The translations under genes were made by a program, and so were the position numbers. A stretch of 64,000 bases of DNA, from NCBI RefSeq assembly GCF_000746025.2, contig NZ_CP045798.1, positions 606,501 to 670,500 on the forward strand, read 5' to 3'. The notes below the pieces were generated by a model that did not search any database, was not told where the DNA came from, and saw only the letters and a list, made by a program, of their open reading frames with translations. Of the stretch, positions 6,178 through 56,316 are shown in pieces (positions within the stretch are counted from its first letter, which is position 1; each line of letters starts with the position of its first letter). The DNA comes from Thermanaerosceptrum fracticalcis (lineage in GTDB: Bacteria > Bacillota > Peptococcia > DRI-13).

Positions 6178-6400
6178 AGGCGGGGGCTTGCGGTTAAAAA
6201 CTACAAGCCTTAGTTGACTACCCTCAGCCAGGGTCGAAAGACTATTGAGCTATGTTAGACAGGTTACGACACCAGGGAATGATGCCCTAGTTCCATGCTC
6301 TGTCGCATATACTTAAACAGTCCTGAGGGGTAGGGACAGTGGTATATGCACACAAGCCTGTCTAACCTTGGGGAAGGGCAAATTAACTCTGAAAGGAGAG
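6160..6400 (+). ncRNA. HEARO / omega RNA 1
   Basis: The region upstream of iscB shares blocks with the second copy at 10.7 kb: TAGTTGACTA, GTTAGA, ACGACACC, TTAAACAGT, GGTAGGNACAGTG, ACAAGCC, TCTAAC and AACTCTGAAAGGAG, with unlike sequence between them. This is what a conserved RNA fold with variable helices looks like. In characterised IscB systems this RNA guides the nuclease; its 5' guide derives from DNA just outside the element, here the end of the TadG-like gene. Confidence 0.85.
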
Positions 6401-7715: not shown

Positions 7716-7764
7716 AAGGTGGAGACTTCTCGCTCAATTTTCGCTAAAAAGGAGGCATGCGTTC

Positions 7765-10720: not shown

Positions 10721-10920
10721 AGTCCGAGGCTTGTAAGCCTCTAGTTGACTAGCCTTAGCTTGGAAAGGGCTACGTTAGAAGGGTCACGACACCCTGGAGT
10801 GCGAGCCCAAGCTCCAGGCACTGTCGCTGGTGGTTAAACAGTTCTGAGAGGGTAGGAACAGTGCCGTCGGCACGACAAGCCTTTCTAACATTGGCGATGG
10901 GTGATCAACTCTGAAAGGAG
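10708..10920 (+). ncRNA. HEARO / omega RNA 2
   Basis: Shares the conserved blocks of HEARO RNA 1 (TAGTTGACTA, ACGACACC, TTAAACAGT, GGTAGGAACAGTG, ACAAGCC, TCTAAC, CAACTCTGAAAGGAG) in the same order and spacing. The intervening helices differ in sequence while keeping complementarity, for example CTGGAGTGCGAG with CCAAGCTCCAG. It lies immediately before iscB 2. Confidence 0.85.
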
Positions 10921-10929
10921 GTAGGCTAT

Positions 10930-12195
10930 TTGTTAGTCTATGTGCAAAACAAACACGGTAAACCTTTGATGCCGTGCAGTCCGAGAAAAGCAAAGGTATT
11001 GCTCAAACAAGGGAAAGCCAGGGTTGTAAAGAGAACACCATTTACCATCCAGCTCATATACGGGTCCAGCGGATATAAACAACCTATTAACTTAGGTGTC
11101 GATGCCGGGAGCAAAACAATAGGTTTATCCGCCACTACTGAAAAGAAAGTATTGTTTGAAGCAAAAGTCGAGCTAAGGAACGACATAACAAAACTGCTGG
11201 CAGACCGAAGGGAGTTAAGAAGAAGCAGGAGGTATCGCAAGACAAGATACCGCAAGCCTAGGTTTGACAATCGCAGGAGGCCCGAAGGTTGGCTGGCTCC
11301 ATCGGTTGGGAACAAGGTTGAGGCACATATAAAAACAATACAGATGGTATGTAAAATACTGCCGGTAACAAAAATAGTCATTGAGGTTGCTAGTTTTGAT
11401 ATACAAAAAATTAAGAATCCCGGAATATCCGGTGTCGAGTACCAGCAGGGCGAGCAGTTGGGATTCTGGAATGTCAGGGAATACGTCCTGTGGAGAGACG
11501 GTCATCAGTGTCAAGGTAGACCGGGATGCAGGAACAAGGTCTTGAACGTACACCACATAGAAAGCCGTAAAACCGGGGGCGATGCTCCCAACAACCTGAT
11601 AACCCTGTGCGAACAATGTCACAAAGACTACCACGCAGGGAAACTGAAACTAAACCTAAAGAGAGGGCAGAGTTTCCGGGATGCAGCTTTCATGGGAATC
11701 ATGCGAAGGGCTGTCTACAACAGACTAAAGTCGATATATCCGAACGCAGAACTCACTTACGGATATATTACGAAACACACCAGGATAGCTCACAATTTAG
11801 AGAAGAACCACCGGACCGACGCTCGTTGTGTCAGCGGCAATCCGCAAGCACAACCTGACAACACCTGGTACTACTTCAAACAGGTACGGAAACAGAACAG
11901 GCAGCTTCATAAGGCAAACCCTATCAAGGGAGGGATTCGGAAAGCGAACAAAGCACCGAAATACCTGCTTGGATACCAACTGTTTGACAAGGTGCTGTAC
12001 GAAGGACAGGAGTGTTTCATCTTTGGTCGCAGGGCCAGCGGGTATTTTGATTTAAGGAAACTGGACGGGACAAGAGTAAGTCCGTCGGTTAGCTGCAAAA
12101 AACTAAAACTGCTTGAAAGAGCAAGTGTATTTCTATGCGAAAGGAGGAACGGCGGCTTCCTCCCCGGAATGAATTCCGGGGTTTCCGCTGCCTGA
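10930..12195 (+). CDS. iscB: IscB RNA-guided nuclease 2 (RuvC + HNH)
   Basis: 421 residues. PLMP domain (KHGKPLMPC), RuvC-I (GVDAGSKTIG near 57), bridge helix (RRELRRSRRYRKTRYRKPRF), RuvC-II (IEVASFD), HNH (VHHIESRKTGG near 207 with CEQCHKDYH) and RuvC-III (KNHRTDAR near 292). The HNH carries a CxxC-type zinc-binding pair that IscB 1 shows less clearly. Motifs look intact. TTG 10930 follows GAAAGGAGG. It is closer to iscB 1 in layout than in sequence. Confidence 0.92.
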   Translation: MLVYVQNKHGKPLMPCSPRKAKVLLKQGKARVVKRTPFTIQLIYGSSGYKQPINLGVDAGSKTIGLSATTEKKVLFEAKVELRNDITKLLADRRELRRSRRYRKTRYRKPRFDNRRRPEGWLAPSVGNKVEAHIKTIQMVCKILPVTKIVIEVASFDIQKIKNPGISGVEYQQGEQLGFWNVREYVLWRDGHQCQGRPGCRNKVLNVHHIESRKTGGDAPNNLITLCEQCHKDYHAGKLKLNLKRGQSFRDAAFMGIMRRAVYNRLKSIYPNAELTYGYITKHTRIAHNLEKNHRTDARCVSGNPQAQPDNTWYYFKQVRKQNRQLHKANPIKGGIRKANKAPKYLLGYQLFDKVLYEGQECFIFGRRASGYFDLRKLDGTRVSPSVSCKKLKLLERASVFLCERRNGGFLPGMNSGVSAA

Positions 12196-15297: not shown

Positions 15298-16344
15298 ATG
15301 TTCAAAATTGCTATTGACCTGGGTTATGGTTTTGTAAAAGGTATTAACGAGGCAGGTAAGTCCATACTGATCAGAACGGCAGTCGGTACGGGAGTAAACC
15401 GACAATTATCGACATTTTTTGGAGCGAACGAAAAGAGCAGGGATCATGTGATTATCAGTCAGGGCGGAGTGGAGAAGCAATATTTTATTGGCAACCTGGC
15501 CCGGAAAGAAGCAAGAGACTGCTCCAGCCCTTTTGAAAAAAATAAAATAGACAACCCGTCAACCAAGGTGCTTTTAGCGGCAGCCTTTGCCATTTTGAAC
15601 GAAAATAACAATGAGCCGGTACATATCGTAACCGGTCCGCCATTGTTGTATGCTGCCGAGCAAAAGGAATCCTTTAGGAAGGCCCTGATGGAATTCAACG
15701 CCGTTTTGCAGTTTGTGGGGGAAGAAAAATTTCATATCATAAAATTTGATAAAGTAACAGTTTTCCCGCAGGGTGCGGCTGTGGTTTACCACCTCTTGAA
15801 AAAAAATCCGGAACTGGCCCAGCCGGGAAAATCTTTTGTCATAGTGGAGATAGGCTACAAAACTACGGAAATACTGATGTTTGAAATAACGAGTGATAAA
15901 AGGATACAGCCTATCAGCGGATATTCAACGACTCTGGAGCTGGGCATGAACTTTGTGGAAAAAGCCATAGATGAATTCTTTTTCCAGAAAACGGGGAGTA
16001 AACTGATTCCGGCGGCACTGGACCGGGTAATGAACGGGTTCCCGGTTGTGAGCTACAACGGCAGGGAAATAAACCTTGAGGAAGCCCGTAACAATGCCAA
16101 AGACGAAATGGTAAGGAGTATAATTGATGGGGTCACCCAGACATTGGGCGAACAAATCGGGTTTACAAACAAGCTCATCTTTGCCGGGGGAGTCATGCAG
16201 GACGAATATATCAGCAAAAAGATAAAAGCCGTAATGACAAACGATCCGGTCATAATCGAAAACAGTCAATTCGCCAACGCCTTGGGTATGTTGGAAGTGG
16301 CCAGAGCCGTCGAATTGAAAGAAGCCAGAGAAGGAAAGGCGTAA
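15298..16344 (+). CDS. parM: ParM/StbA-like actin homologue (plasmid segregation)
   Basis: 348 residues with the actin-ATPase phosphate-1 loop IDLGYGFVKGIN at the N-terminus, a middle VIVEIGYKTTEILMF (phosphate-2-like) and FAGGVMQDEYI (adenosine loop). These are the ParM/Alp-type signatures. Such filaments push plasmid copies apart through a ParR adaptor bound to a centromere. An iteron field and a ParR-like gene follow directly, which completes a type II partition module, although the centromere is more often upstream of parM. ATG 15298 has AAAGAGAGG. Confidence 0.85.
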   Translation: MFKIAIDLGYGFVKGINEAGKSILIRTAVGTGVNRQLSTFFGANEKSRDHVIISQGGVEKQYFIGNLARKEARDCSSPFEKNKIDNPSTKVLLAAAFAILNENNNEPVHIVTGPPLLYAAEQKESFRKALMEFNAVLQFVGEEKFHIIKFDKVTVFPQGAAVVYHLLKKNPELAQPGKSFVIVEIGYKTTEILMFEITSDKRIQPISGYSTTLELGMNFVEKAIDEFFFQKTGSKLIPAALDRVMNGFPVVSYNGREINLEEARNNAKDEMVRSIIDGVTQTLGEQIGFTNKLIFAGGVMQDEYISKKIKAVMTNDPVIIENSQFANALGMLEVARAVELKEAREGKA

Positions 16345-16800
16345 CTTTGTCCGACAGCCGGAAGTCTTGCAGGACAAGGGATGGAAGGCAATTTTTCGTG
16401 ATTTTGTCCGACAAAATATTTGACAAGATTATTTAAGACTGTTAATTACCAGTTATCTTGTCCGACAACGGGAAGCCTTGTCCCGCAAGGGCTAGAGGCT
16501 GATTTTTGCGAATTTTGTCCGACACTCATCACGGTACTTTGTCCGACAGCCGGAAGTCTTGCGGGACAAGGGCTAGAAGGCGATTTTTTGTAATTTTGTC
16601 CGACAAGATTTTCAAGGCTTTCAATTTCCAGTTGTTTTTTGTCCGACAAAGTTTAAAAAAAGTATCGTTCAAGCCTTGTGCGACAACGGTTTCGGCTGTC
16701 GGACAAAGAGAGAGACGCTTTGTCCGACAAAATGCAGAAAAAACGGCCTTCGTGCCAGAAAAGACAAGGGCTCCGGCTGTCGGACAAGAGGGGGGTGGAA
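16345..16800. repeat. iteron cluster 2, candidate parC centromere
   Basis: At least ten copies of TGTCCGACA/TGTCGGACA, near 16348, 16394, 16460, 16516, 16540, 16596, 16639, 16697 (inverted), 16721 and 16779 (inverted). Between them are GCCGGAAGTCTTGC(A/G)GGACAAGG blocks. Placed between parM and the ParR-like gene, this is the expected kind of ParR binding site. It is the inverted partner of the cluster at 0.2-0.45 kb. Confidence 0.85.
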
Positions 16801-17895: not shown

Positions 17896-18250
17896 AAAAT
17901 GGCGTATAGAAACATATATGCAACTGATGCAATTTTGACATTGTAACATGCACTCACAATGGCATAAAAAAAAAATAAACGAAAAGTCGTTGCTATGTCA
18001 ATCGATACATGTTGCAACTATGTCTTTTCAAAACCAGCAAGCCCTTGAGCCACAAGGGTTTCGTGAATTGTCAGAAAAAAGCACTTCTTTTCGCTCTAAG
18101 AGCGAGAGGTAAGGAGGGGGTTTCGCTCATAGAGCGAAACGCCCTCCTTACAGCCGACATCGAAAACCGACAAGAAGGTAGACAGTCTTTTGTATTTTTA
18201 AATGTTTCTCGTACAAAGACACAGCTAAAAAAAGGGGGATGGAAATTTTA
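17896..18250 (+). other. intergenic region with a 20-bp inverted repeat at 18109-18151
   Basis: No convincing gene. The main feature is a 20-base arm, GTAAGGAGG(G)... at 18109-18128, repeated inverted at 18132-18151 with a 3-base spacer and one mismatch. It is preceded by a smaller palindrome CGCTCT/AGAGCG (18092-18105). TTGACA occurs at 17935 without a well-placed -10. The arms could form an operator, a single-strand initiation hairpin or a cruciform. Confidence 0.6.
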
Positions 18251-19402
18251 ATGATATACGGACTTGATGGAAACAAGATGAACCTGGTGGATAGAGATAT
18301 AAAAATACTGAGTGCCATATACCAGTTGCAGGCTGTCAGGGCTATAGACATAGCCGATGCGTATTACACGGGCAAGAACTACGGGATGGCGAGGATGCAG
18401 CGTTTAGTTGAGCGTGGCTATCTTGAGAGGAGCTACACTGTGACTCCGCAAGGAAGAAGGAACCATGCCGTTTTGCAAATAAGCGAAAAAGGGATCGACG
18501 CACTGGTAAGCATCGGTGTGATAAAGGAGCAGGAAAGACGGAGAGCCAGGGACTTGAAGCTGAGCGGTTGGGATATGGTGCAAAGAGTTGATGTAAGCCG
18601 CATTTGCATACACCTGGCGAAAGCTGGCTGGAGATTTATGAGTGCCCAGGAAGCCAAACAAAAACACAACATCAATCCATCATCCATTATGCACTGCTGC
18701 TTAATATCACCCGACAAAGAAATATATCAGACATACAGGATGGGCGTAACCATAAAGGAAAGCACACTAGCAAAACTTGTGAGCGAACTTGGTGAAAACA
18801 GGTACAGCAGCTTGATACTTTACGATGCCAAAGAACCGTTGGAAAAGACTGAGGCTTACCAGTCTTTATTAAGCGAACTGCAACGCCAGCAAGTATTCGT
18901 AAACGAGCTTTGCCTGATACCACTTGTTGATTATTTTGCAGGTTTGGGTTCATTCAGTTTAGGAGTAACCATGCTGAAAAACAGCACGAACATGCACATA
19001 TGGCACTACATACATCGCAATTTTGGTTTTGTTGGACATATGAGCAACCGTTACGGTTTTGGTTCCATGTATACAAAAATAGGGGAAGAAGATTATTTAA
19101 TTTGCAACTACCTGAGACGCAACCTGACCGCCTTGAAAATGCTGGCCAGGACACTCACAATCAGCGAACATCGGAACAGCGGTTACAACGCCTTTGTTTT
19201 AACCTGGCAGGGTTTCAAGGACGAGGTGCAGGAAGAAATAGACCGGGTGCAGCCGGGACGTGACTTTATACAAATACTTCCTGTGCTGAGCAAAGACCTG
19301 GCCTTGCCTGACGACAAGCCGGACCTAAAACTGATCAAGCCTGAAAAGCCCGAAGGAGAATGGGAAAAAGATGAAGAAGAAAGGGAAGAGGATGAAAAAT
19401 AA
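18251..19402 (+). CDS. replication-relaxation-like winged-helix protein
   Basis: About 383 residues. The N-terminal winged helix (RDIKILSAIYQLQAVRAIDIADAYY, then MQRLVERGYLERS and GIDAL) is the arrangement of the Replic_Relax family found near plasmid replication and transfer genes. The middle is a mixed domain with RYSSLILYDAKEPLEKTEAYQ. The C-terminus is highly acidic (EWEKDEEEREEDEK). ATG 18251 is preferred, as ATG 18239 is only one base from the AAAGGGGG ribosome site. It may regulate relaxation or initiation on this replicon. Confidence 0.6.
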   Translation: MIYGLDGNKMNLVDRDIKILSAIYQLQAVRAIDIADAYYTGKNYGMARMQRLVERGYLERSYTVTPQGRRNHAVLQISEKGIDALVSIGVIKEQERRRARDLKLSGWDMVQRVDVSRICIHLAKAGWRFMSAQEAKQKHNINPSSIMHCCLISPDKEIYQTYRMGVTIKESTLAKLVSELGENRYSSLILYDAKEPLEKTEAYQSLLSELQRQQVFVNELCLIPLVDYFAGLGSFSLGVTMLKNSTNMHIWHYIHRNFGFVGHMSNRYGFGSMYTKIGEEDYLICNYLRRNLTALKMLARTLTISEHRNSGYNAFVLTWQGFKDEVQEEIDRVQPGRDFIQILPVLSKDLALPDDKPDLKLIKPEKPEGEWEKDEEEREEDEK

Positions 19403-29591: not shown

Positions 29592-30281
29592 TTGTTTCCG
29601 ACAGAAGCGAAAATAGAATGGAAGCGGGTGCCGTCCAACCACCTGTCAGAACACTCGCACCATACCTTGCGGGAAGAAGAAAAGCACCTGCTTAAGCTGC
29701 TTGCAAAAACCGGGATCGTATCCGGCGGACAGGTCCAGGCCCACGGCATCCTGGGCCAATCCGAAAGAAAATCAAGAAGCCTTTTAAATCGCATGTTTTA
29801 TCAGAAAAAAATCATCGAACATAAATTGAGTACAAGCAAGAAGGAATACAAAATATATACCCTGGGGCCTGTGGGAGCCAAACTCGTGAATGTGCCTTAT
29901 GCACCCGACTACTGGTACTTTTACAAAGAAAGTGAAGCAGTGCAAAGAATCATGGCCTTTGATCTATATTTACAGATGTGCAGGTATTTCGGGACCGATG
30001 TGGAAATAAAACCGGGAGAACCCCCTTATGTTTACACATTTTCAATTGGTGTCAAAACATATAAAATAGGGGCGATATGGGACAACTTGACAACTTTCGT
30101 TGAAACATACAGGTGGAATCCTCCCGAGGACCGGGTGATTTTAGTATGCAGTGATCTTTCATCAATAAGCAGCCTTATTCAGTATTTCGAAGAACATACA
30201 CCCATCAGGGCTGCAACATGTCAAGACTTGAGGCAAGGACTCGTTATTTACAAGCCGGGCAAAAACGGCTGGGAAAAATAA
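29592..30281 (+). CDS. winged-helix protein upstream of the Cas12m-like gene
   Basis: 229 residues. The N-terminal half is a winged helix (EEKHLLKLLAKTGIVSGGQVQ, KSRSLLNRMFYQKKIIEHKL). The rest has AVQRIMAFDLYLQMCRYFG and DRVILVCSDLSSISSLIQYF, recalling the nuclease-like half of Replic_Relax proteins such as that at 18.2 kb. It ends 17 bases before the effector gene and probably shares its transcript, so it may be its regulator. TTG 29592 follows AAAGGGGGAA. Confidence 0.55.
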   Translation: MFPTEAKIEWKRVPSNHLSEHSHHTLREEEKHLLKLLAKTGIVSGGQVQAHGILGQSERKSRSLLNRMFYQKKIIEHKLSTSKKEYKIYTLGPVGAKLVNVPYAPDYWYFYKESEAVQRIMAFDLYLQMCRYFGTDVEIKPGEPPYVYTFSIGVKTYKIGAIWDNLTTFVETYRWNPPEDRVILVCSDLSSISSLIQYFEEHTPIRAATCQDLRQGLVIYKPGKNGWEK

Positions 30282-30298
30282 GAAAAAGGGGGTTTTTC

Positions 30299-32002
30299 AT
30301 GGAAACTGCCGCAACCAAGAACTACCTGGCATTATCCTTTGGCTGCCTTTCCCCGACAAGGGGGGAGGAATACCTGCTGGACCAGATCAAAAAGAAACAC
30401 GACTTGTGGAACAAGCTGGTTGAAAAAGACCGGGAACACAGGGAAAAAGTGCGTCAAGTCATGGTTTTTGAATCAGAAACGACAAAAAAAATCAAAGAAC
30501 TGGAGGAAGAACTGAACTCATTAAGGGAAGAAATTAAAAACCAAAGAAAAACCAAGCGGACGGGAAAGGTTGACTTGACAGACCAGAAGGCCAGGATTGA
30601 GGAAATTAAGCCTCAACTTAAACAACTCAAAGAGAAATTCAAAGAAGAACGCTCGTTTATTTTTGAGGCCCGCAAGCAGGAGCTTGCCCAACTGGAGAAG
30701 GAAAGGTGGGCGGTCGTCAAAGAATTGGGAAAGGGAAGCGGGTTGTATTGGTGTAACCTGGAGGATGTGGTGAACAGTTACGATATAGGCCGCAAAAAAG
30801 CCAAAGCTGCGGGCGGGGAAATGCGATTCCATCGTTGGGACGGCACTGGTAAAGTCACGGTCAGGTTCCAGAAGGGCCTGCCTGTCAATGAAATGTTTTC
30901 CTGCACCAATAACCTGCTGCAAATAGACCCCGTGGATAAAGACGCCTGGTACAATCCGGTCCGGGCCATCCGCAGGAAAAAGAGCCGGACCAGGGTCCGC
31001 CTGCGGGCCTGTTCCGAAAACAAAAAGCCGTTGTTTATTGAACTGCCTGTGGTTTTGCACCGGGAGATACCGGAAGATGCCCTGATCAGGACCGCCTCCG
31101 TCATTAGGGAAAAAGTTGGCATGAGATACCGGTACAAACTCAACCTGGTTCTGGAAATTTTGGGAGAAAACACAAACAGAATCCTTCCAGCCCTGGAAGG
31201 CACAGCGGCCATTGACCTGGGTTGGCGAACGGTCAAGGACGGGCTTAGGGTGGCTTGTCTTGTGGACGACAAAGGCCACAGCGAGGAACTCATCCTTGAC
31301 AACGATGTTCTCCATGAGTTTAATAAAATAAAGGACCTGCAATCAATAAGGGACAACCTGTTCAACGAAACAAAGGCGAAACTGATGGAATTGTTAAAAA
31401 CCCTGGAACTTCCCGATGAAGCGAAAGAAAGAACAAGCCATATGGCAAACTGGCGTTCACAACAAAAAATGCTGAGACTTCACCAATACTGGCGGGAAAA
31501 CCGGTTGCCCGGCGATGATGAGGTATGGGAAGTTTTGGAATATTGGCGTAAACGGGAAATTCACTTGTACGAATGGCAGGAAAATTTGCGGGATCAGGTT
31601 CTTCGCAGAAGGAAAGAAATATACAGGATATTTGCGGCCAAAATAACCAGGAAGTACAAAACCATAGTCCTGGAAGAATTCACGCTGAACAAAACGGTTC
31701 AGAAACCCAACCCCGAAGAAGGCCCGGCAGGAACATTGCCTGCAAACAGGAACAGGTTTATAGCGGCAATATCCGAATTCAGGAACGAATTGGCCAATGC
31801 TTGTCGGAAAAATCATGTGGAATTCACATATGTGCCTGCTGAAAATACAACAATAACCTGTCATAAATGCGGGCACAAGGAAAAATTCGATGCGGCGGCT
31901 CAGATAATACATACATGCAGCACATGCGGGGAACTATGGGACCAGGATTACAACGCAGCGAAAAACCTGTTGGCTTTTTCGCAAAAGGGCGGGGTAAAAT
32001 AA
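30299..32002 (+). CDS. cas12m: Cas12m-like (type V-U1/V-M) CRISPR effector
   Basis: 567 residues from ATG 30299 (AAAAAGGGGG 7 bases upstream). A long N-terminal coiled coil (about 35-140) is followed by RuvC-I IDLGWRTV (Asp 306), RuvC-II TIVLEEF (Glu 459/460), a zinc ribbon CHKCG (521-525) and CSTCG (540-544), and RuvC-III WDQDYNAAKNL (Asp 550). Size, single RuvC, absence of cas1/cas2/cas4 and a directly adjacent array fit type V-U1 (C2c4, now Cas12m). Characterised Cas12m proteins bind DNA by crRNA and block transcription or replication without cutting it. RuvC acids look intact here. A TnpB is excluded by length and by the array. Confidence 0.8.
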   Translation: METAATKNYLALSFGCLSPTRGEEYLLDQIKKKHDLWNKLVEKDREHREKVRQVMVFESETTKKIKELEEELNSLREEIKNQRKTKRTGKVDLTDQKARIEEIKPQLKQLKEKFKEERSFIFEARKQELAQLEKERWAVVKELGKGSGLYWCNLEDVVNSYDIGRKKAKAAGGEMRFHRWDGTGKVTVRFQKGLPVNEMFSCTNNLLQIDPVDKDAWYNPVRAIRRKKSRTRVRLRACSENKKPLFIELPVVLHREIPEDALIRTASVIREKVGMRYRYKLNLVLEILGENTNRILPALEGTAAIDLGWRTVKDGLRVACLVDDKGHSEELILDNDVLHEFNKIKDLQSIRDNLFNETKAKLMELLKTLELPDEAKERTSHMANWRSQQKMLRLHQYWRENRLPGDDEVWEVLEYWRKREIHLYEWQENLRDQVLRRRKEIYRIFAAKITRKYKTIVLEEFTLNKTVQKPNPEEGPAGTLPANRNRFIAAISEFRNELANACRKNHVEFTYVPAENTTITCHKCGHKEKFDAAAQIIHTCSTCGELWDQDYNAAKNLLAFSQKGGVK

Positions 32003-32040
32003 GCGGTATTTGTATTTGCGAGAAAAAACAAAACAAAAAA

Positions 32041-32078
32041 ACCGGAAACACAGGCAAAACAAGGTTTGTGTTTCCGGT
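32041..32078 (+). promoter_or_regulatory. 12-bp hairpin abutting the first CRISPR repeat
   Basis: ACCGGAAACACA (32041-32052) pairs perfectly with TGTGTTTCCGGT (32067-32078) around 14 bases. The last two bases are the first two of repeat 1. No U-tract follows, so it is not a normal terminator. It could mark the leader end or protect the array transcript. Confidence 0.7.
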
Positions 32079-33516
32079 TGCAATGCCTAGCTCAGAGGTT
32101 TAAAGACTGAGACGAAAATGTATTTGCAGAAGAAGAAAACTTAAAATCTGTGTTGCAATGCCTAGCTCAGAGGTTTAAAGACTGAGACGTCAAGAACGTA
32201 CCAGGAGAAATACTCACAGACCACCTGTTGCAATGCCTAGCTCAGAGGTTTAAAGACTGAGACGCTCATAAAATCTCTGAATTTATCTTCTTTATCTTGA
32301 GTTGCAATGCCTAGCTCAGAGGTTTAAAGACTGAGACCTGGTCGCTCTTGTGGGGTACAATATGGTCAACCACGTTGCAATGCCTAGCTCAGAGGTTTAA
32401 AGACTGAGACTTTCCGACTACCTTCGCGCTGTGCTGCTGCCAGTCTATGTTGCAATGCCTAGCTCAGAGGTTTAAAGACTGAGACATATGATGGCATATA
32501 AACTAAACCGGTCCGGATTTTTGGTTGCAATGCCTAGCTCAGAGGTTTAAAGACTGAGACGTTGGTTTATCCAGTCAAACCATTGCCGGTTACGTTTAGT
32601 TGCAATGCCTAGCTCAGAGGTTTAAAGACTGAGACAAAGCGATATTGGAGTTGGAGATGCCGGAGAGTTGCGTTGCAATGCCTAGCTCAGAGGTTTAAAG
32701 ACTGAGACATTTGTTTCGTTTTGCAGTTCTACAGCCTCATGGATAAGTTGCAATGCCTAGCTCAGAGGTTTAAAGACTGAGACAATCAAACGGACAGGAG
32801 GTAAGCTGGGATGAAGAATGTTGCAATGCCTAGCTCAGAGGTTTAAAGACTGAGACGATATAAGAACCCGTAATCGAGGAATGTGAACGTTCGCGTTGCA
32901 ATGCCTAGCTCAGAGGTTTAAAGACTGAGACGACTAGAGGGTAGTGACAGGGGTAAATTAAGATATGCGTTGCAATGCCTAGCTCAGAGATTTAAAGACT
33001 GAGACTGATATGGTGTAAGTCTGTAATCCCATACCCACACTTTAGTTGCAATGCCTAGCTCAGAGGTTTAAAGACTGAGACGGCCGATGATAACTGCCAA
33101 TGAACGTTCATTCCAGAATTGTTGCAATACCTAGCTCAGAGGTTTAAAGACTGAGACAAAATAATAACTCTAAGCATCAAATCTCAGTTTCTAGAGCAGT
33201 TGTAGTGCTTAGCTCAGGAGTTGATAAACTGAGACGAAGCAAGATCGACATCACCAGTATGTACCAGCTTTAGGTTGCAATACTCAGCTCAGGAGTTAAA
33301 ATACTGAGACATTAGTTCTGTGGTCTCCTTTTTTTTCGGTTGTAAGCTACAATACTCAGCTCAGGAGTTAATACACTGAGACTTATAACCACATAGTCCA
33401 GGCTGCCCTATACAATTCCCGTTACAATACTGAGCTCAGAAGTTGGTGAACTGAGACCCACTCCCTTGCCAGGAGCCGATCGGCTAATGCCTAGCTCAGA
33501 GGCTTCAAACTGAGAC
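32077..33516 (+). CRISPR. CRISPR array, 20 repeats of 37 bp, 19 spacers
   Basis: The repeat begins GTTGCAATGCCTAGCTCAGA and ends TTAAAGACTGAGAC. Copies start at 32077, 32152, 32227, 32301, 32374, 32449, 32524, 32599, 32672, 32747, 32820, 32895, 32969, 33045, 33121, then degenerate copies at 33199, 33274, 33346, 33421 and 33480. Spacers are mostly 36-39 bases; the last is about 22. Decay at the far end puts the leader on the effector side. CTCAG/CTGAG pair inside the repeat and are kept in all degenerate copies, which marks the crRNA stem next to the spacer. Confidence 0.98.
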
Positions 33517-33590
33517 TTGAACTCGCAGCCTATAGTTGAGGATCATGCCGCCGCATCCTCTCCATTTTAACGGCCGATAAAGTCAAGCCC

Positions 33591-33823: not shown

Positions 33824-33862
33824 GAGGAGGTGAAACCCGGCTTAAGGCCGGGGCAATTCATG
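33824..33862 (+). promoter_or_regulatory. SD-hairpin-start module (bet)
   Basis: GAGGAGGTGAAA, then CCCGGC/GCCGGG stem with 5-base loop (33836-33852), then ATG 33860. A GTG at 33830 overlaps the ribosome site in frame but is unlikely to be used. Confidence 0.75.
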
Positions 33863-34957
33863 TCAATCAATGTTCCCCAAGAACAAAACGTGGCGGCAAC
33901 CCTTCACCCTCAGCAACTGCCAATGGAAGTATCGCCGTCAAAACTGGTGGCAATGCTGTCACCAGAGGACAAAAAAACAATCATGAGTCTGTGTATGCCC
34001 AAAAACGCCACGGACTCTGAGCTTGCACTATTTTTATACAAGTGCAAGCAGATGGGACTGGATCCGTTAAGTAAAGATCTAGTCCTTCAAAAATGGACCA
34101 ACAAAGACGGAACCGTAACTCTTAATTTCATCACTACCCGAGACGCTTTGCTTAAAAAAGCAGAGCAGAATCCCAACTACAATGGGATCAATTCCGGTGT
34201 GGTGAGGGAAGGAGACGAGTTCCTCGTGGACACCGAAAAAAGTGTTGTCAGACACACTTTCGGTGCCAAACGGGGAAAAATTTTGGCGGGCTGGGCCGTA
34301 GCCTACCATAAAAGCAGGAATCCGGTCATAGCCATCGCCGATTTTGAGGAATATTTTAGGGCCAACGCTTCGTCACCGGTATGGCAAAGCGTGCCGTCCG
34401 CCATGATTCAAAAAGTGGCGGAGGTAATGGCCCTGAGAAAACAATTCCCCATAGTACAGGGAGTCTACACCAGAGAAGAACTGCCTGTCGGGGAAGAAGC
34501 GGAAGCCGCAAGAGTTGTTGATGTTGTTGCAGATGCGGTCGCAGCAATCGAAGTAACTCCTGAGATGGTGGAAACAACAATGGTGGAGACAACAGAGGAA
34601 ACAACAACCCAAACAAAAAGAGAAAAGGACCCGTTGATCCACATGACACCGCCACAGCAACAGTCTCAACAACGGCAACAACCTCAAAAAGAACAGCAAC
34701 CGCTGCAACAGCAACAACCAGAAACCAGCCCCCAAGATGCCTACAAACTGTTGGCAGTCAACACGGGGCGGTCCAGTACCGGCACTCCTTACGCCAAAGT
34801 GGGCTGTGTTTCGCCGGACGGTGAAACAAAGGTCCTGCTGGCAAAAGGGGAAGAAGGGCTGGCAATGGTGGCCAACCTGAAAGAGGGATGTTATTTCAAG
34901 GCCCAGACCGTAAACGAAAAGGGCTTTGAAATAATAACCTCACTGGAAGTAATATAA
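33860..34957 (+). CDS. bet: Bet/RecT-family single-strand annealing protein
   Basis: 365 residues. The core LALFLYKCKQMGLDPLSKDLVLQKW followed by FITTRDALLKKAEQNPNYNG and the later MIQKVAEVMALRKQFP are hallmarks of the phage recombination protein Bet (Red-beta superfamily). It anneals complementary single strands. After residue 250 comes a Gln/Glu/Thr-rich linker (QQQSQQRQQPQ) and a C-terminal domain of about 70 residues (YKLLAVNTGRSSTGTPYAKVG) not typical of Bet. SSB and a RecB-like nuclease lie in the same operon. Confidence 0.9.
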   Translation: MSINVPQEQNVAATLHPQQLPMEVSPSKLVAMLSPEDKKTIMSLCMPKNATDSELALFLYKCKQMGLDPLSKDLVLQKWTNKDGTVTLNFITTRDALLKKAEQNPNYNGINSGVVREGDEFLVDTEKSVVRHTFGAKRGKILAGWAVAYHKSRNPVIAIADFEEYFRANASSPVWQSVPSAMIQKVAEVMALRKQFPIVQGVYTREELPVGEEAEAARVVDVVADAVAAIEVTPEMVETTMVETTEETTTQTKREKDPLIHMTPPQQQSQQRQQPQKEQQPLQQQQPETSPQDAYKLLAVNTGRSSTGTPYAKVGCVSPDGETKVLLAKGEEGLAMVANLKEGCYFKAQTVNEKGFEIITSLEVI

Positions 34958-37565: not shown

Positions 37566-37604
37566 AAGGAGGTGAAGCCCCGGTTAAACCGGGGCACAAT
37601 TATG
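37566..37604 (+). promoter_or_regulatory. SD-hairpin-start module
   Basis: AAAGGAGGTGAA, stem GCCCCGG/CCGGGGC with 5-base loop, 6 bases, ATG 37602. Confidence 0.8.
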
Positions 37605-44496: not shown

Positions 44497-44698
44497 ATCT
44501 AATTACAGATGAATAAGCTATAAATGAGAGATTATTTGAGGGCGGAACAGCCAGCCGCCGCACCCTTGTGGTCTGTAAAGAGATGCAGATTGGCACCTGC
44601 CAAATAATCTCCGCAAAAAAAGTTCCACTTTATGTCGAACTTTTTCGTTTTATAAGCCTTGGAGGTTTTATTTTTTTTATCTCAATCTTCCCAAAAAC

Positions 44699-45397: not shown

Positions 45398-45413
45398 ATT
45401 CTCAAAAAAAACA

Positions 45414-45680
45414 TTTACACATCTTGAAAAGACTAGTAAAATATAAGTAGATTAATAGTTTGTACCGCACACCACCTCCTTTTTGGTTGTGGAGAGCGGG
45501 TTAGAGAAAATCCCGTAGCCCATTTTGCTGCGGGACATTGAGCCGCACACCGTGTTCGTATTTGCGATTTACGGAAAGCGGCAAAAAAAATTGCAGGCAT
45601 AAGCCTGCAAAAAGAAAGGTATTTTAAAAGGCCATTTTATGCCTAGTTTTTTAGGTATGGGGTGGCCTTTTGTATTTTTT
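45414..45680 (+). promoter_or_regulatory. promoter and attenuator-like leader 3, two AYA/ARA stems
   Basis: TTTACA (45414-45419), 17 bases, TAAAAT (45437-45442). Stem a: CCGC-ACA-CCAC (45465-45475) with GTGG-AGA-GCGG (45489-45499). Stem b: CCGC-ACA-CCGT (45543-45553) with ACGG-AAA-GCGG (45571-45581). Further hairpins TTGCAGGC/GCCTGCAA (45590-45610) and a terminator AAAAGGCCA/TGGCCTTTT (45627-45672). Confidence 0.75.
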
Positions 45681-45686
45681 AAAAAA

Positions 45687-45728
45687 AGGAGGTGAAGCCC
45701 CGGCAGTTTTATGCCGGGGCGTAATATG
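45687..45728 (+). promoter_or_regulatory. SD-hairpin-start module (YddF-like gene)
   Basis: AAGGAGGTGAA, GCCCCGGC/GCCGGGGC with loop AGTTTTAT, 5 bases, ATG 45726. An ATG lies in the loop itself. Confidence 0.8.
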
Positions 45729-46052
45729 AAAAATTTAAAAGCAATTTTAAGTACCACCGTCCTTCCTCTGGACGGGGTGTACTGTGTGGAAACCCTTCCG
45801 CACGGTGAAATTCCAAATTTGTCCGGGGTGCCGCATTACATAGGCCATCCCGACACAAAGGAAATAGTGGAGGGGCTGGGAGCAGTCCCGGCTCCGACGA
45901 AGCTGTTCACCGGCTTAGATGTTGGGGAGCAGGCCATCTGCTTCCCCATCCAGCAGGGGAAAAGCAACCGGGCGGTGGACGGATTCACGTCTCCGCACCA
46001 AAACGTCAGTCTGGGCGATCTCCAGATCCGGGTCATCACCCGGCTGGAGTAA
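45726..46052 (+). CDS. YddF/DUF1874-family protein (related to AcrIII-1 ring nucleases)
   Basis: 108 residues. The centre HYIGHPDTKEIVEGLG carries the IGH-x-x-T motif of DUF1874, and GEQAICFPI...LGDLQIRVITRLE matches the end of YddF of ICEBs1 as I recall it (QKAICFSL, YLLTRLD). The family includes the virus protein B116 and the AcrIII-1 ring nucleases, which cleave cyclic tetra-adenylate using this His. Activity of the YddF branch is not established. The reading frame is full of stem-loops (see findings). Confidence 0.7.
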   Translation: MKNLKAILSTTVLPLDGVYCVETLPHGEIPNLSGVPHYIGHPDTKEIVEGLGAVPAPTKLFTGLDVGEQAICFPIQQGKSNRAVDGFTSPHQNVSLGDLQIRVITRLE

Positions 46053-46060
46053 AAGAAAAA

Positions 46061-46100
46061 AAGGAGGTGAAGCCCCGGTTTATGCCGGGGCAAAAGAATG
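46061..46100 (+). promoter_or_regulatory. SD-hairpin-start module
   Basis: AAGGAGGTGAA, GCCCCGG/CCGGGGC with loop TTTATG, 7 bases, ATG 46098. Confidence 0.8.
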
Positions 46101-46436
46101 ATAAACAATATTTTAAAAAAAGCGGCGTATCTCGTCGCCGCTATTCCGGTTACTGACCGCAATGCCGCAGTATTGCGGTCAGTAAAAAAGGAACTTGACA
46201 CTACCCTTCCCAAGGGATGGGAAGGTAGTGTTAACTCAAATAGTGTTGCCGCATTTACCCGGCAAATGCCGGCAACCGAACCCGTATGGGTTCGGAGAAA
46301 GGTAATTTTCCTTGATAGCGACTTCGCTATCAAGGAAACCGGGTACTGGAAATACCCGGATGGGTGCTGCATCTGGTGCGGCACCGATCTGGGCACAGCC
46401 ACAGGCGAGGATTGTCCCACCTGTGGCGGAAACTAA
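46098..46436 (+). CDS. zinc-ribbon protein encoded by a hairpin-tiled mRNA
   Basis: 112 residues ending CCIWCGTDLG...CPTCGGN, a C-terminal zinc ribbon. The N-terminal part is not recognised. Remarkably, the 339 bases of the gene are nearly all in perfect stems: 46121-46142, 46151-46184 (13 bp), 46198-46231, 46245-46276, 46276-46295, 46307-46338 (14 bp), 46339-46359 and 46399-46426. Whether the frame is translated or mainly an RNA scaffold is open. Confidence 0.5.
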   Translation: MINNILKKAAYLVAAIPVTDRNAAVLRSVKKELDTTLPKGWEGSVNSNSVAAFTRQMPATEPVWVRRKVIFLDSDFAIKETGYWKYPDGCCIWCGTDLGTATGEDCPTCGGN

Positions 46437-46440
46437 AATA

Positions 46441-46670
46441 ATCCCGGTCTTGGCCAATTCATAACTTGGTTGAGACCGGGGGAAACAAAAAAGGGGCACG
46501 GGGGTCCGCAAGGTGCAGTCCCGTGCAGGCCGGGGCCAAGGCAAGAGAGGTTTATGCCATCTCTTGCCTTGCCACGCTAAAGGGCAGGTGCCCCAAAAAA
46601 TACACTGCCGCCAGTCAGGCGATACTGGCCGGCAGCGAGTGCTGCCGGGGCGGGTGGAAACCGCCCAGAA
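46441..46670 (+). ncRNA. structured RNA segment between hairpin-tiled genes
   Basis: No frame with a ribosome site. Stems: CCCGGTCT/AGACCGGG (46443-46480), GCACGGG/CCCGTGC (46496-46526), AAGGCAAGAGA/TCTCTTGCCTT (46538-46570), CTGCCG-CCAGT/ACTGGCCGGCAG (46605-46635) and GGGCGG/CCGCCC (46648-46666). It continues the hairpin series of the flanking genes. Confidence 0.55.
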
Positions 46671-46681
46671 AGGAGAAAAAT

Positions 46682-47530
46682 ATGAAAATGGCAAAAGTTT
46701 TCTACCTTCTCGACGAAGGGGGTAGAAAAAGGTCTCTCCTTGCCGGAGGCGACGGCAAGGAATTACAAACTCTGGAGTGCGAGTGCACTCCGGAACTGCT
46801 GGAGTTGGCCCGTGTCAACTCCGATGGTGAAGTCGTTTTAGATCTCGCCGGAGAACTGGCCCTGGACCTGGAAATAAAGCCAGGCAAACCAGGGGAAATA
46901 ACCCCGTTTGGGGTGTATTCCCCAGAACCTCCCAAAATTAAGGAGGTTCACCAAAAATGGAGCGGGAAATACCATTTTTCCGCTCCGCAAACCCCAGGTG
47001 AATTGATCGCCTGGGAAAAGGCCAGACGGGAAAAAGTTGCCGCCCGACTGGCGGAGCTACAGCCGGAATATGACCGGCTGAGAGCTGAGTACGAGGCCGA
47101 CATGGCCTTGTATTTGGCTGAAAAAGAAAGACGTGCCGCAGAGGAAGCTGCACGTCGCAAAGAGACAGAGGAAAAGGCTGCCGCTGAGAAAAAAGCGGCA
47201 GCAGAGGAAAAAGCAGCGTGGGTACAAGCCCACGGCAGCGACTTCCTTAAGCGGGTGCATGCCCTCGGTTACGACTGCCAGCGGCAGTACGTAACTGAGA
47301 GGGCGGAGAAGGAGTTGCCTGACTTCCATGTCGATTTTGACATCGATTTTTCTTGGAAGTCTCGCTCCTGCCCGAGTGAGGAAGCCTTGGAGATGGTTGA
47401 GGAACTCATCTCCAAGGGATATAATGCCGAGGTAGTCTGGCTCACAGAGGCCCCTGGTCTCGATGAGCCTTGCGAGGCAGTTGTTGTCCACAACTACCTT
47501 GGCAAATATGATTTAATAAGGCTGGTTTAA
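46682..47530 (+). CDS. coiled-coil protein encoded by a hairpin-tiled mRNA (282 aa)
   Basis: ATG 46682 follows AGAAAGGAG by 7 bases. The middle is a long Ala/Glu/Lys coiled coil (EKERRAAEEAARRKETEEKA). Both flanks are globular (LDEGGRKRSLLAGGDGKE; DFHVDFDIDFSWKSRSC). Not recognised. The DNA forms stems along its length, for example 46889-46924, 46959-46986, 47130-47156, 47177-47202, 47217-47234, 47386-47418 (11 bp). The gene ends in TAAGGCTGG/CCAGCCTTATTTTT (47517-47545), a terminator. Confidence 0.65.
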   Translation: MKMAKVFYLLDEGGRKRSLLAGGDGKELQTLECECTPELLELARVNSDGEVVLDLAGELALDLEIKPGKPGEITPFGVYSPEPPKIKEVHQKWSGKYHFSAPQTPGELIAWEKARREKVAARLAELQPEYDRLRAEYEADMALYLAEKERRAAEEAARRKETEEKAAAEKKAAAEEKAAWVQAHGSDFLKRVHALGYDCQRQYVTERAEKELPDFHVDFDIDFSWKSRSCPSEEALEMVEELISKGYNAEVVWLTEAPGLDEPCEAVVVHNYLGKYDLIRLV

Positions 47531-47546
47531 TACCAGCCTTATTTTT
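47517..47546 (+). terminator. intrinsic terminator overlapping the stop
   Basis: TAAGGCTGG pairs perfectly with CCAGCCTTA around 7 bases, then TTTTTAAAT. Confidence 0.8.
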
Positions 47547-47551
47547 AAATA

Positions 47552-47597
47552 AAAAGGAGGTGAAGCCCCGGTATAGAGTTCCCGGGGCAAAAAAATG
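47552..47597 (+). promoter_or_regulatory. SD-hairpin-start module
   Basis: AAAAGGAGGTGAA, GCCCCGG/CCGGGGC with loop TATAGAGTTC, 7 bases, ATG 47595. Confidence 0.8.
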
Positions 47598-47936
47598 AAA
47601 ATTACGTTTATATACAAATCAGGTGAACAAAAAATCGTGAAAAGCGTTCCTTTATGGCACGCTTTTGAAAAATACGGATTTAATGATGGGGAACTCCCGG
47701 GGGCGGACGACGCTATAGAAGAAATTATTAATATTTTAGAGAAACACCTTCCCGAACAAAATTATATCGTTGAGCAGGTATCCACATGTTGTCACAACGA
47801 TTACATTAACATAATCTACATCGATAAAAATGGCAACGAAATATATTTGGATACTTTGGTTTCCATTGAACACATTAATAAGTACCCAGCTCTTGTAAAA
47901 GAGTTGGAAAACTTAGTTATAGAAATAGAGATCTAA
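47595..47936 (+). CDS. hypothetical protein (113 aa)
   Basis: Begins MKITFIYKSGEQKIVKSVPLW, with acidic helix DAIEEIINILEKHLPEQN and strands INIIYIDKNGNEIYLDT. Not recognised. Some stems are present in the frame (AAAAGCGT/ACGCTTTT, 47638-47664). Confidence 0.55.
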   Translation: MKITFIYKSGEQKIVKSVPLWHAFEKYGFNDGELPGADDAIEEIINILEKHLPEQNYIVEQVSTCCHNDYINIIYIDKNGNEIYLDTLVSIEHINKYPALVKELENLVIEIEI

Positions 47937-47937
47937 A

Positions 47938-48051
47938 AAAAGAGGTGAAGCCCCGGTTGTTCACAACAGGGGCAAAAAACTGAAAGACAGGTTCACAACC
48001 AGCCTTATTATTTTGGAGTTGTCTAGCGGGCCATGCCCGCATTTTTTTTGC
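47938..48051 (+). promoter_or_regulatory. orphan SD-hairpin module without ATG, then terminator
   Basis: AAAGAGGTGAAG, GCCCC-GGTTGT/ACAAC-A-GGGGC stem, 6 bases, then CTG 47980 where other modules have ATG. A terminator GCGGGC cat GCCCGCATTTTTTTT (48029-48051) follows within the frame. It looks like a decayed or CUG-starting copy. Confidence 0.6.
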
Positions 48052-51451: not shown

Positions 51452-51491
51452 AAAGGAGGTGATGACCATGTTGCAAAACATGGTCGCAGTG
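51452..51491 (+). promoter_or_regulatory. SD-hairpin-start module with unrelated stem and GTG start
   Basis: AAAGGAGGTGAT, stem GACCATGTT/AACATGGTC with GCAA loop (51464-51485), 3 bases, GTG 51489. Different stem, same architecture. ATGs inside the stem are in frame and cannot be excluded. Confidence 0.65.
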
Positions 51492-52382
51492 CAAAATCAA
51501 GAAACAAAAGCCCACATCGGGCACCTGTTTTGGTACTCCATCGGAGACGACTTATACAGCCGGTCCCTGCTGGAACAAACGCTCGTTAGAGCGGGCTTAT
51601 CGTTGAGCTACATGCCCAACGAGATCAGGCCCGTGGATGCTTTCAGGCGGTCCACCAAAGAAGTGGAGACCAGCCGAAACCTGGGCAACGGACTGCAAGA
51701 AAACTATATCACCCGGGACGTATACTACGACCCGGCTGTGGCGGTCCGGCACATTGTTAAGGAAACCGTGGACTCCAAGGGCAAGAGGCTGTCATACAAC
51801 GAAAATGAAGCCATCTTGACCCTGGACAAAAAGGCTGATGCAATCCATTTTTCAGCCGATCCCAACTCCTACGCCTGGAAGCTGTGCGAAGAAGCCGTCC
51901 GTCTCTTTGAAGTTTTCAAAGAGCACCACAACGGCCAGGCAGTAAGAGGCATGGTGCAGGCAGTGCTGAAAACCCTGTCGCCGACTCCGGTGCGGCCCTC
52001 GGGTGGAGTATACTTCATTCCAGCCGTTCACGACCGGGCTTTATGCCAATTGGTACAGTTTTGCTCCAGTTTTGCCAAGGGCGAGGGCTTCAAAATTCCG
52101 GTCGTCAACTCCGAGGAATCCGTCCGGATGGTTGAAACCAAGGTGAAGGATCATCTGGACAGCCTGCTCGGACAATGCAGGCAGGCTTTGCAAGATGGGT
52201 CCATCCCCAAGGCAAAGCTGGCGGAGCTGATCAACGAAACCAAAAACGTAGTCGCCGGTTACCGGGACTACGAAGAAATCATCCAAAAATCCAAGCAGGA
52301 AATAGACGGACGGATAGAAATTATCCGGGACGCCTTAAGTCTGCTTATGGATAAAGTTAAGGCTGGTGAAAACATGGGGTAA
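51489..52382 (+). CDS. hypothetical protein (about 297 aa)
   Basis: Starts MQNQETKAHIGHLFWYSIGDDLYSR if GTG 51489 is used. LTLDKKADAIHFSADPN, FKEHHNGQAVRGMVQAVLKTLSPTPVRPSGGVYFIPAVHD and a C-terminal helical part follow. I believe similar proteins accompany MoxR/VWA genes on phages and plasmids, but I do not recognise a function. It is upstream of the MoxR/VWA pair. Confidence 0.6.
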   Translation: MQNQETKAHIGHLFWYSIGDDLYSRSLLEQTLVRAGLSLSYMPNEIRPVDAFRRSTKEVETSRNLGNGLQENYITRDVYYDPAVAVRHIVKETVDSKGKRLSYNENEAILTLDKKADAIHFSADPNSYAWKLCEEAVRLFEVFKEHHNGQAVRGMVQAVLKTLSPTPVRPSGGVYFIPAVHDRALCQLVQFCSSFAKGEGFKIPVVNSEESVRMVETKVKDHLDSLLGQCRQALQDGSIPKAKLAELINETKNVVAGYRDYEEIIQKSKQEIDGRIEIIRDALSLLMDKVKAGENMG

Positions 52383-53811: not shown

Positions 53812-55287
53812 ATGGCAAAAAGGAAATACTTTCATAGCTGCCTGAATACCGACAGCTACGACAGGCAGTCTTTCCAACGGCTGATGAACATATCGCCAAA
53901 GCTGGATGCCCTTGAAAAAAGGGGCGACATAATTTTTCCCGGTTTTGTGAATCTCATGGGGGACCAGTGGTCTTGTTTATACAAGGCCACTCCCCGACTT
54001 CTGCCGGAGACGGAAATAAGCGAAACTGCCCTTTACCACAAACCTCTGATCAAAAAACTCATGGAATCGGAGGAATATGGGAAATTAAGGGAAACGACGG
54101 TACTCGATGATTTTTCCTCGGTGCTTGGCACGATGATAACGAGCGAAAAAATCATTGAGTATATAGAAAACAGAAAAAAAATAGATGAGGAGCTGAAAGA
54201 AAAACTGAAACAGCAGAAAGAACTCCAGCAACGACTGGAAAAGCTCCAAAACTCCATGCAAAACAACAAAAAAGGGCCAACCCAAAAACAAAAAGAGAAA
54301 GAAAAGGCCCTGCAAAACGAGCTTAATAATCTCTCTCAGCAGGTGACGCAATCTCTTGCGGATGGGCTGCCTGTCAATCAAATATTGTCCCAGGCGGCAC
54401 AGGAGACTAAGGAAACAAAAGACAGCATGGAAGAACTGCTGTCCGGTTCGCAGCCGGGTTCAGGCCATATGGAAATGCAGAAAATACCACTCCGCAATCA
54501 ACTTGAACTTGCGATGCAGTTGAAACAATATCCCAAGATCAAGAAAGTTGCGGAATGGGCGGGACGGTTCAAGCGTATAGCCCGGAAAAAACAAAAATCC
54601 AAGAATGTTTTTTCCGTGGAGCGGCAAGGCATATCGTTGGGCAGTGATCCCGAACTGCTCTTGCCGACAGAACTGGCCCAGTTGAAAAATCCGGCCACCA
54701 GGCTTGATTTTTACCGGCGGTTTGCGGAAAAACAGACCTTGCAGTACACGCCGTTAGGAAAAGAGCAGGCCGGGAAGGGCCCGATTGTTTTGTGCCTGGA
54801 CCAGTCGGGCAGCATGAATCGTTTAAAGGAACAGGCGGCGGGCTTTGCATTAGCCATAGCTATGATAGCTAGGGCCCAAAGGAGGGATTTTGCCTATATA
54901 ACCTTTGACAGCAGCATTGGTGAGGTTTTTACCTTCCCCAAAGGCAAAATCTCGACAGAAGCCATCGTAGAGATGGCTACAAGTTTTCTGGGAGGCGGAA
55001 CAAATTTTGAAAAACCCCTCTCAGAAGCAATAAAAATCATACAGAAAACCGCCCGGTTCAAAAATGCTGATATAATCTTTGTCACGGACGGAGAGGCGGA
55101 AATCGGCGAAGACTTTTTGCGGAACTACAAACTTCAAAAAGAGCGGCTGAAATTCCAGTGCATGGGTTGTATCCTGGGCAATGGGTCCTCGTACATAAAC
55201 AATCATCTTGCTAAAGTAACAGACGAACTGTTTTACGCCCAGGACCTCATAGAAGCAGCCGAAAACAGCAGTATTTTTAAGATATAG
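53812..55287 (+). CDS. VWA-domain protein (ViaA-like) partner of MoxR
   Basis: 491 residues. N-terminal helical half with a coiled coil (EELKEKLKQQKELQQRLEKLQ). The C-terminal VWA domain has the MIDAS motif CLDQSGSMNRLKEQ (about 328-340), a GGGTNFE loop and IIFVTDGEAEI. It would be activated by the upstream ATPase. AGGGGTAGGAG precedes ATG 53812. A terminator follows at once. Confidence 0.9.
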   Translation: MAKRKYFHSCLNTDSYDRQSFQRLMNISPKLDALEKRGDIIFPGFVNLMGDQWSCLYKATPRLLPETEISETALYHKPLIKKLMESEEYGKLRETTVLDDFSSVLGTMITSEKIIEYIENRKKIDEELKEKLKQQKELQQRLEKLQNSMQNNKKGPTQKQKEKEKALQNELNNLSQQVTQSLADGLPVNQILSQAAQETKETKDSMEELLSGSQPGSGHMEMQKIPLRNQLELAMQLKQYPKIKKVAEWAGRFKRIARKKQKSKNVFSVERQGISLGSDPELLLPTELAQLKNPATRLDFYRRFAEKQTLQYTPLGKEQAGKGPIVLCLDQSGSMNRLKEQAAGFALAIAMIARAQRRDFAYITFDSSIGEVFTFPKGKISTEAIVEMATSFLGGGTNFEKPLSEAIKIIQKTARFKNADIIFVTDGEAEIGEDFLRNYKLQKERLKFQCMGCILGNGSSYINNHLAKVTDELFYAQDLIEAAENSSIFKI

Positions 55288-55319: not shown

Positions 55320-55537
55320 TGTGCTATATTTAAGCCATGGATAAGTTTTAATGCTTAACCGCCCGGTGCAACCGTTGCGGAAGAAGCCGTTTTATGAGTT
55401 TATTTTTGTTTATAAAAATCCATGTGTGGGAAAGGAAGAATTTTAAAAGCCTATTTTATCCAAAAAAGGGTAAAATAGGCTTTTTTGTTTGCTTTAAACG
55501 CCCAAGCCAACGGGCGTTTAAAATAAAAATTTTAAAA
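55320..55537 (+). promoter_or_regulatory. attenuator-like leader 5
   Basis: A -10-like TATATT at 55325. ACCGC/GCGGA stem near 55358-55383. Terminator AAAGCCTATTTTAT/GTAAAATAGGCTTTTTT (55446-55486), then AAACGCCC/GGGCGTTT (55497-55519). Bases from about 55440 on are almost identical to leader 6. Confidence 0.6.
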
Positions 55538-55620
55538 AGGAGGTGAAGCCCGGCATAAACCGGGGCGGCAAAATGATGAAAACAACACTAATACAAATAT
55601 ACGCTTTTCATAATGGCGTA
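55538..55620 (+). pseudogene. SD-hairpin-start module and truncated gene start (16 codons), copy of 56276 onward
   Basis: AAGGAGGTGAA, CCCGG/CCGGG stem, ATG 55573, then MMKTTLIQIYAFHNGV and stop. The paralogue at 56314 begins MMKTTLELKGR. The module and leader are duplicated; this copy was cut after its sixth codon, with hicAB following. Confidence 0.7.
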
Positions 55621-56130: not shown

Positions 56131-56277
56131 ACGAGACGGCATAGATTACGAGAACCCTAACATGGAAAAAAAAGTATTTTAAAAAGCCCATTTTATTCGA
56201 GAAAGAAGGATATAGTGGGCTTTTTTGTTTGCTTTAAACGCCCAAGCCAACGGGCGTTTAAAATAAAAATTTTAAAA
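56131..56277 (+). promoter_or_regulatory. attenuator-like leader 6 (duplicate of leader 5's 3' half)
   Basis: Terminator AAAGCCCATTTTAT/ATAGTGGGCTTTTTT (56183-56227), then AAACGCCC/GGGCGTTT (56237-56259) and a stretch to the ribosome site identical to 55490-55550. The stem change CCTA/TAGG to CCCA/TGGG is compensatory. Confidence 0.6.
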
Positions 56278-56316
56278 AGGAGGTGAAGCCCCGGGTATTT
56301 CCCGGGGCAAAAAATG
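56276..56316 (+). promoter_or_regulatory. SD-hairpin-start module
   Basis: AAAAGGAGGTGAA, GCCCCGGG/CCCGGGGC with loop TATTT, 6 bases, ATG 56314. Confidence 0.8.

Follow-up and report, generated by a model that had tools for sequence, protein, structure and literature searches.

RNA viruses are known for ordered structure that extends through their coding sequences, a trait bound to the RNA nature of their genomes. The locus described here raises the question of whether messages transcribed from a bacterial chromosome can be folded in a comparable way, and what such folding would serve. It lies in a 64,000-nt window of Thermanaerosceptrum fracticalcis (C1:606501-670500 of the 3.8-Mb single-contig genome; positions without prefix refer to the window), for which an initial annotation, made from the sequence, had described a message tiled with stem-loops between about 45.7 and 47.6 kb.

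Three ORFs on the plus strand occupy this stretch. The first (45726-46052) encodes 108 residues and has a structured transcript lacking long perfect stems. The second (46098-46436, 112 residues) carries two CxxC pairs at its end and has no convincing homologue among 398 genomes; that it codes for a protein is therefore judged from its start signal, the open frame and these CxxC pairs. A 16-bp stem-loop (46442-46481) lies directly 3′ of it, followed on the same strand by a candidate for a twister-sister-like ribozyme (46501-46590) and by three leader hairpins (46604-46667), which precede the third ORF and are conserved in its paralogue. The third ORF (46682-47530, 282 residues) is tiled with hairpins, and a 12-bp stem-loop spans its end (47515-47543, plus strand, arms 47515-47526/47532-47543). 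AlphaFold2 predicts that its protein has two small domains connected through a long helix (pLDDT 84, pTM 0.50), and no match to it was found in viral contigs or phage records. The paralogue, at C1:4465-5310, shares 79% protein identity, and 77 of the 135 codons that differ between the two genes differ synonymously, which supports real coding of the third ORF.

Perfect stems of at least 8 bp hold 24.1% of the bases in 46001-47000 and 9.6% in 47001-48000, against a mean of 3.6% for the whole window. The individual stems that had been named could be located, at 46150-46163/46172-46185 and 46307-46320/46325-46338 (both 14 bp), 46537-46548/46560-46571 (12 bp), 47177-47185/47194-47202 (9 bp) and 47385-47395/47407-47417 (11 bp). 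Coverage by 7-bp arms reaches 25-28% in the two automatic ORFs of the stretch. In a background of 437 ORFs of the same genome, drawn from the window, two other regions and a sample of twenty 20-kb stretches, it averages 3.3%, and the 99th percentile is 12.5%. A single short, AT-rich ORF of the background (243 nt) lies above the 25-28%, and is taken for a chance ORF over two hairpins.

The folding energies were compared with those of shuffles preserving protein, codon usage and dinucleotides, a check that the initial annotation had proposed. All three ORFs fold far below these shuffles, with z = -4.3, -6.8 and -8.4 in order of position and none of the 60 shuffles as low, and the stems do run through the reading frames; against dinucleotide shuffles, 46098-46440 gives z = -13.5. 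The fold excess amounts to 20, 43 and 33% for the first, second and third ORF, and perfect stems of at least 7 bp hold 47% of the bases of the second and 23% of those of the third. The next gene (47595-47936) has z = -0.5. In the second ORF, the energy per nucleotide is -0.499 kcal/mol for the real sequence, -0.341 for codon-synonymous shuffles and -0.252 for shuffled codon order, and the corresponding values for the third ORF are -0.443, -0.337 and -0.265. Since codon-synonymous shuffles still fold better than sequences with shuffled codon order, the amino-acid order itself favours pairing; two control genes show little or no gap between the two kinds of shuffle.

These results confirm that the hairpin tiling is real, with two corrections. 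Stems are dense, but about 63% of the bases are paired in a local MFE fold of 45400-47570, rather than nearly every base as had been stated. The first ORF, described as resembling the other two, does so in its folding energy, but contains no perfect stem of at least 7 bp, its stems being bulged or wobbled. The coding stems share no sequence, in agreement with the statement that they are not a repeat family, and no known RNA family matches the coding part. A family of interspersed palindromic repeats inserted in the ORFs was considered and rejected, since the leader hairpins alone are recurrent among the repeats detected.

The extent of 1.8 kb given at first, with no mention of the split ribosome-binding sites or the ribozyme-like RNA described below, proved too small: the property is present there, but it extends over many of the genes in a plasmid-like element of roughly 23 kb, whose approximate core (33814-56838, plus strand) is delimited by the per-gene fold z, by a gene module of large plasmids and by split ribosome-binding sites confined to it, and which combines hairpin-rich genes with interspersed ones lacking the property. 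Besides the three ORFs, the structured genes include, all on the plus strand, those for RecT (33872-34957, z about -7 (-7.7); Pfam RecT, 4.5e-30), DUF6744 (51459-52382, z = -4.8) and a VWA protein (53812-55287, z = -5.6), together with those for SSB (z = -3.4) and DUF4258 (z = -3.5) and a gene at 37572 (z = -3.8). The VWA protein has no match in viral contigs. No excess is seen in the element's YopX, HEPN, TnpB-like (at 36139), PD-(D/E)XK and DUF2325-like (at 48117) genes. The excess is shared by many core genes of the element and mostly absent from its cargo and from the chromosomal neighbours; genes at 1-33 kb are mostly near zero, with exceptions at 18009-18251 (z = -4.4, a short ORF outside the element), 7690-8496 (-3.4) and 10930-12195 (-3.0). 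An adaptation to a hot habitat was rejected as a cause, given a 16S G+C content of 54% and the mostly unstructured chromosomal neighbours.

Several other features were observed in the window. At the left edge of the element (30218-33530), a 594-residue protein with a Cas12f1-like TNB domain is encoded directly 5′ of about 20 CRISPR-like repeats arrayed at a spacing of 72-78 bp; this may be a type V system. A skipping-rope RNA (44531-44608, 59 bits) lies just 5′ of a resolvase gene, and two HEARO RNAs were detected at 6156-6386 (152 bits) and 10702-10909 (150 bits). Clusters of inverted and direct repeats at 198-450 and 16344-16788, with ends reading TTGTCCGACA or TTGTCGGACA about 81 bp apart, flank a 16-kb stretch on both sides and are possible ends of another element.

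The paralogue of the third ORF, which is also hairpin-rich (z = -7.0), allowed us to ask whether the pairing has been maintained. Substitutions between the two genes break 44 pairs, against 65.6 ± 4.7 expected when they are re-placed randomly among sites of equal codon position, base and synonymy, and in the other direction 39 against 63.3 ± 4.6. The negative control, a pair of YopX paralogues of the same element, gives 32 broken pairs against 34.8 and 33.9 expected. Compensatory double changes between the third-ORF paralogues are not in excess (6 against 5.3 expected), and three are found in the stem at 47083-47119. This single sequence pair therefore indicates that folding is kept mainly by avoiding breaks. 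Homologues with 41-54% identity to the third ORF (from Thermoanaerobacter wiegelii, a Peptococcaceae MAG and genome G167) show no stem excess. The comparison of homologues that the initial annotation had called for thus has two outcomes: the 79% paralogue keeps the stems beyond chance, but the more distant homologues keep the protein without them. The stems accordingly belong to the lineage of the element, and a property of the protein family was rejected as their source.

Inverted repeats made or kept at the level of DNA would be expected to show G-T and A-C mismatches in roughly equal numbers. Among one-sided changes opposite stems that are perfect in one copy, we counted 33 G-U against 16 A-C (P = 0.0008), and in the reciprocal comparison 22 against 14 (P = 0.33), which combine to 55 against 30 (P = 0.0025); these P values are approximate, as overlapping alternative stems may be counted twice. 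Single mismatches inside stems of the whole element, leaders and terminators included, are G-U in 19 cases and A-C in 5. The reported preponderance of G-U over A-C therefore holds, with modest counts, and points to selection on the transcript, as had been proposed. The coding strand also has the lower z in 16 of 16 genes with z below -2, which is supporting evidence only, as ordinary genes lean likewise (10 of 15).

A common leader, composed of AAGGAGGTGA, a GCCCCGG...CCGGGGC hairpin and the ATG, recurs at about ten of the element's genes and places a hairpin between the Shine-Dalgarno sequence and the start (leaders at 33826, 37568, 39825, 42545, 45688, 46063, 47556, 47942, 52621, 55539 and 56279). 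The inner pairs of these hairpins vary with the pairing kept, for example at 47942. The leader of the first ORF (45688-45728, plus strand) comprises GGAGG, the hairpin 45697-45705/45712-45720 and the ATG, and that of the second covers 46063-46100 on the same strand. With the hairpin looped out, the spacing falls from 33 to 9 nt in the first ORF and from 30 to 10 nt in the second, with stems of 7-9 bp, and in the predicted fold the Shine-Dalgarno sequences of the leaders are strong and open. Long spacing and a shortening hairpin are the marks of a split ribosome-binding site of the T4 gene 25 type. In T4 genes 25 and 38, the hairpin shortens the distance between Shine-Dalgarno sequence and AUG from 27 to 11 and from 22 to 5, respectively (PMC3014915). 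The working distance is cut in the same manner here, but those are single genes, whereas one element here carries about ten copies of one leader.

The leader core, with at most one mismatch, does not occur elsewhere in the genome, and its full form is found in no other of 398 genomes of the phylum. The split ribosome-binding site was also tried, and rejected, as a marker of related elements, given this negative result and eight viral contigs that have the core motif without a hairpin or a start after it. The gene at 47595-47936 has the split site and no stems, which indicates that the two properties are separable. Two of the leaders (55462-55551 and 56202-56291) are duplicates with 94% identity, the former of which precedes only a 16-codon frame; one gene copy behind them seems to have decayed.

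Between the second and third ORFs, 46501-46590 matches the twister-sister family (RF02681) with 33.5 bits. A second match, of 32.8 bits, was found at the paralogue locus (L003 2441-2531, minus strand), where the 5′ side is fused to another gene and GCCC/GGGC pairing restores the outer stem. The third, of 31.1 bits and with a C|A cut site, lies in a Peptococcaceae MAG (L022 2348-2420) and begins at the homologue's stop codon. None of the three reaches the curated cut-off of 34 bits. Of the three third-ORF family members that the RNA adjoins, two have it upstream and one has it directly downstream. Each of the three copies has the core residues G5, C6, A8, G9, C58-G59-C60-U61 and A63, present as GCAAGG or GCUAGG plus CGCU-N-A. 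Residues of this core have been marked as important in the twister-sister ribozyme, of which the C62A and A7U variants stay active (PMC5660989). The candidates resemble this ribozyme in core loop residues and overall arrangement, and differ from it in their scores of 31-33.5 bits and, in the window and the paralogue, in an A for C before the cut site. A search of 348 phylum genomes, with stricter filters that lose weak matches, gave no other match. The putative ribozyme, if active, would probably cleave between positions 46579 and 46580.

The computations show the fold excess, its distribution across the element, its retention in both paralogues and the bias to G-U over A-C. The explanation that we consider best, with a probability of roughly 0.4, is selection at the mRNA level for near-continuous local folding, combined with protection of the message, open split ribosome-binding sites and ribozyme processing. 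Synonymous codons, and in part the amino-acid sequence, would be adapted to form short hairpins, no longer than about 16 pairs. Where few ribosomes cover the message, folding may then protect it from endonucleases and perhaps also from attack by guide RNA or antisense RNA. Ribosomes could still start, because the Shine-Dalgarno sequence would stay open and the hairpin would loop out the spacer to the AUG. Cleavage of the message by the twister-sister-like ribozyme would separate the second ORF from the third and leave a 2′,3′-cyclic phosphate and a 5′-hydroxyl beside stable stems. We favour protection and processing of the message because folding, open looped ribosome-binding sites and the ribozyme fit together. 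A wider version, which we regard as unlikely, is that the element keeps much of its transcriptome in local hairpins as a general protection from host factors that target RNA, whether endonucleases, crRNA-guided or antisense, and that the split ribosome-binding sites and the self-cleaving ribozyme belong to one and the same RNA-handling strategy.

In E. coli operons, a strong negative correlation links ORF-wide mRNA structure to translation efficiency (PMC5318159). By analogy, such poor translation of structured ORFs would fit damping as well as protection, and the structure might keep the genes weakly translated while they are chromosomal, the split ribosome-binding sites setting the residual rate. 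The standardised leaders across the element agree with this possible, if rather tentative, alternative, but their strong and open Shine-Dalgarno sequences would be odd if low output were the aim, and replication and recombination genes would be damped too. It is less probable that the folding serves to escape Rho-dependent termination or R-loops, in that a folded nascent RNA would offer Rho no landing site and pair less with its template, so that a foreign, poorly translated operon is transcribed to its end. Rho and NusG do silence horizontally acquired genes, and the stems tile coding and non-coding stretches alike, but the cargo genes in the same element do without folding.

Equally improbable is an origin at the DNA level, either by template switching that perfects palindromes or by selection on single-stranded DNA in transfer or recombination. 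The unusual perfection of the stems, the minus-strand folds, which likewise lie well under their shuffles (second ORF, z = -5.7; third ORF, z = -7.4), and the RecT and SSB genes on the element would all be accounted for. Against it stand the excess of G-U over A-C among the changes, the lower coding-strand z in all structured genes and the same coding-strand lean in the oppositely oriented gene at C1:4465-5310. A composition artefact or chance is hardly credible: the G+C content is indeed 53% at 46-47 kb compared with about 44% around it, but shuffles preserving composition, dinucleotides, codons and protein do not reproduce the excess, and the conservation of pairs between paralogues, null in the control pair, argues against chance. 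Structure as strong as in phage MS2, carried by a plasmid-like DNA element in a chromosome, would mean that such selection can act on ordinary mRNA too. Whether folding guards the transcripts of mobile elements against nucleases, Rho or RNA-guided defence would become testable, with the paralogues and the untiled relatives as natural controls.

The literature that we searched, limited in range, contained no description of hairpin-tiled coding RNA in a DNA mobile element. In gene content, the element resembles large DUF6744/MoxR/VWA plasmids (Brevibacillus marinus NZ_CP034542 and others), with which it shares genes for DUF4258, DUF6744, an AAA ATPase and VWA in the same or nearly the same order, with SSB and a PD-(D/E)XK nuclease nearby. 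It differs from them in being chromosomal and in its folding, as the hairpin excess of the plasmids is weak or absent: the B. marinus module has a mean z of -1.9 (DUF6744 -4.4 and SSB -4.2 in a first test, -3.3 and -3.0 with more shuffles), Alicyclobacillus shows little excess, and the B. laterosporus and Lysinibacillus plasmids show none. As in the E. coli operons (PMC5318159), structure characterises whole ORFs and varies from one gene to its neighbour, but here it is extreme relative to shuffles and is gathered in one mobile element.

The closest comparison is with the ordered coding RNA of RNA viruses, of the GORS or ssRNA-phage type, in which structure likewise extends through coding sequence well beyond codon-preserving shuffles. 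The three ORFs fold over long stretches in this manner, but they are DNA within a chromosome and not a viral genome, and Pfam scans of most element genes revealed neither an RNA polymerase nor a capsid gene. The element therefore works like ordered coding RNA without being a member of this class. In the same test, z is -11.3, -5.2 and -9.7 for the genes of phage MS2, whose fold excesses are 31, 26 and 33%. The assertion of the initial annotation that no coding RNA of this design has been described is thus not supported. The fold excess of 20-43% found here is comparable with the 26-33% of MS2, and the second and third ORFs match or exceed the MS2 genes; the difference lies in the perfect stems, which hold 0-5% of the MS2 genes, in contrast to 23-47% of the second and third ORFs.
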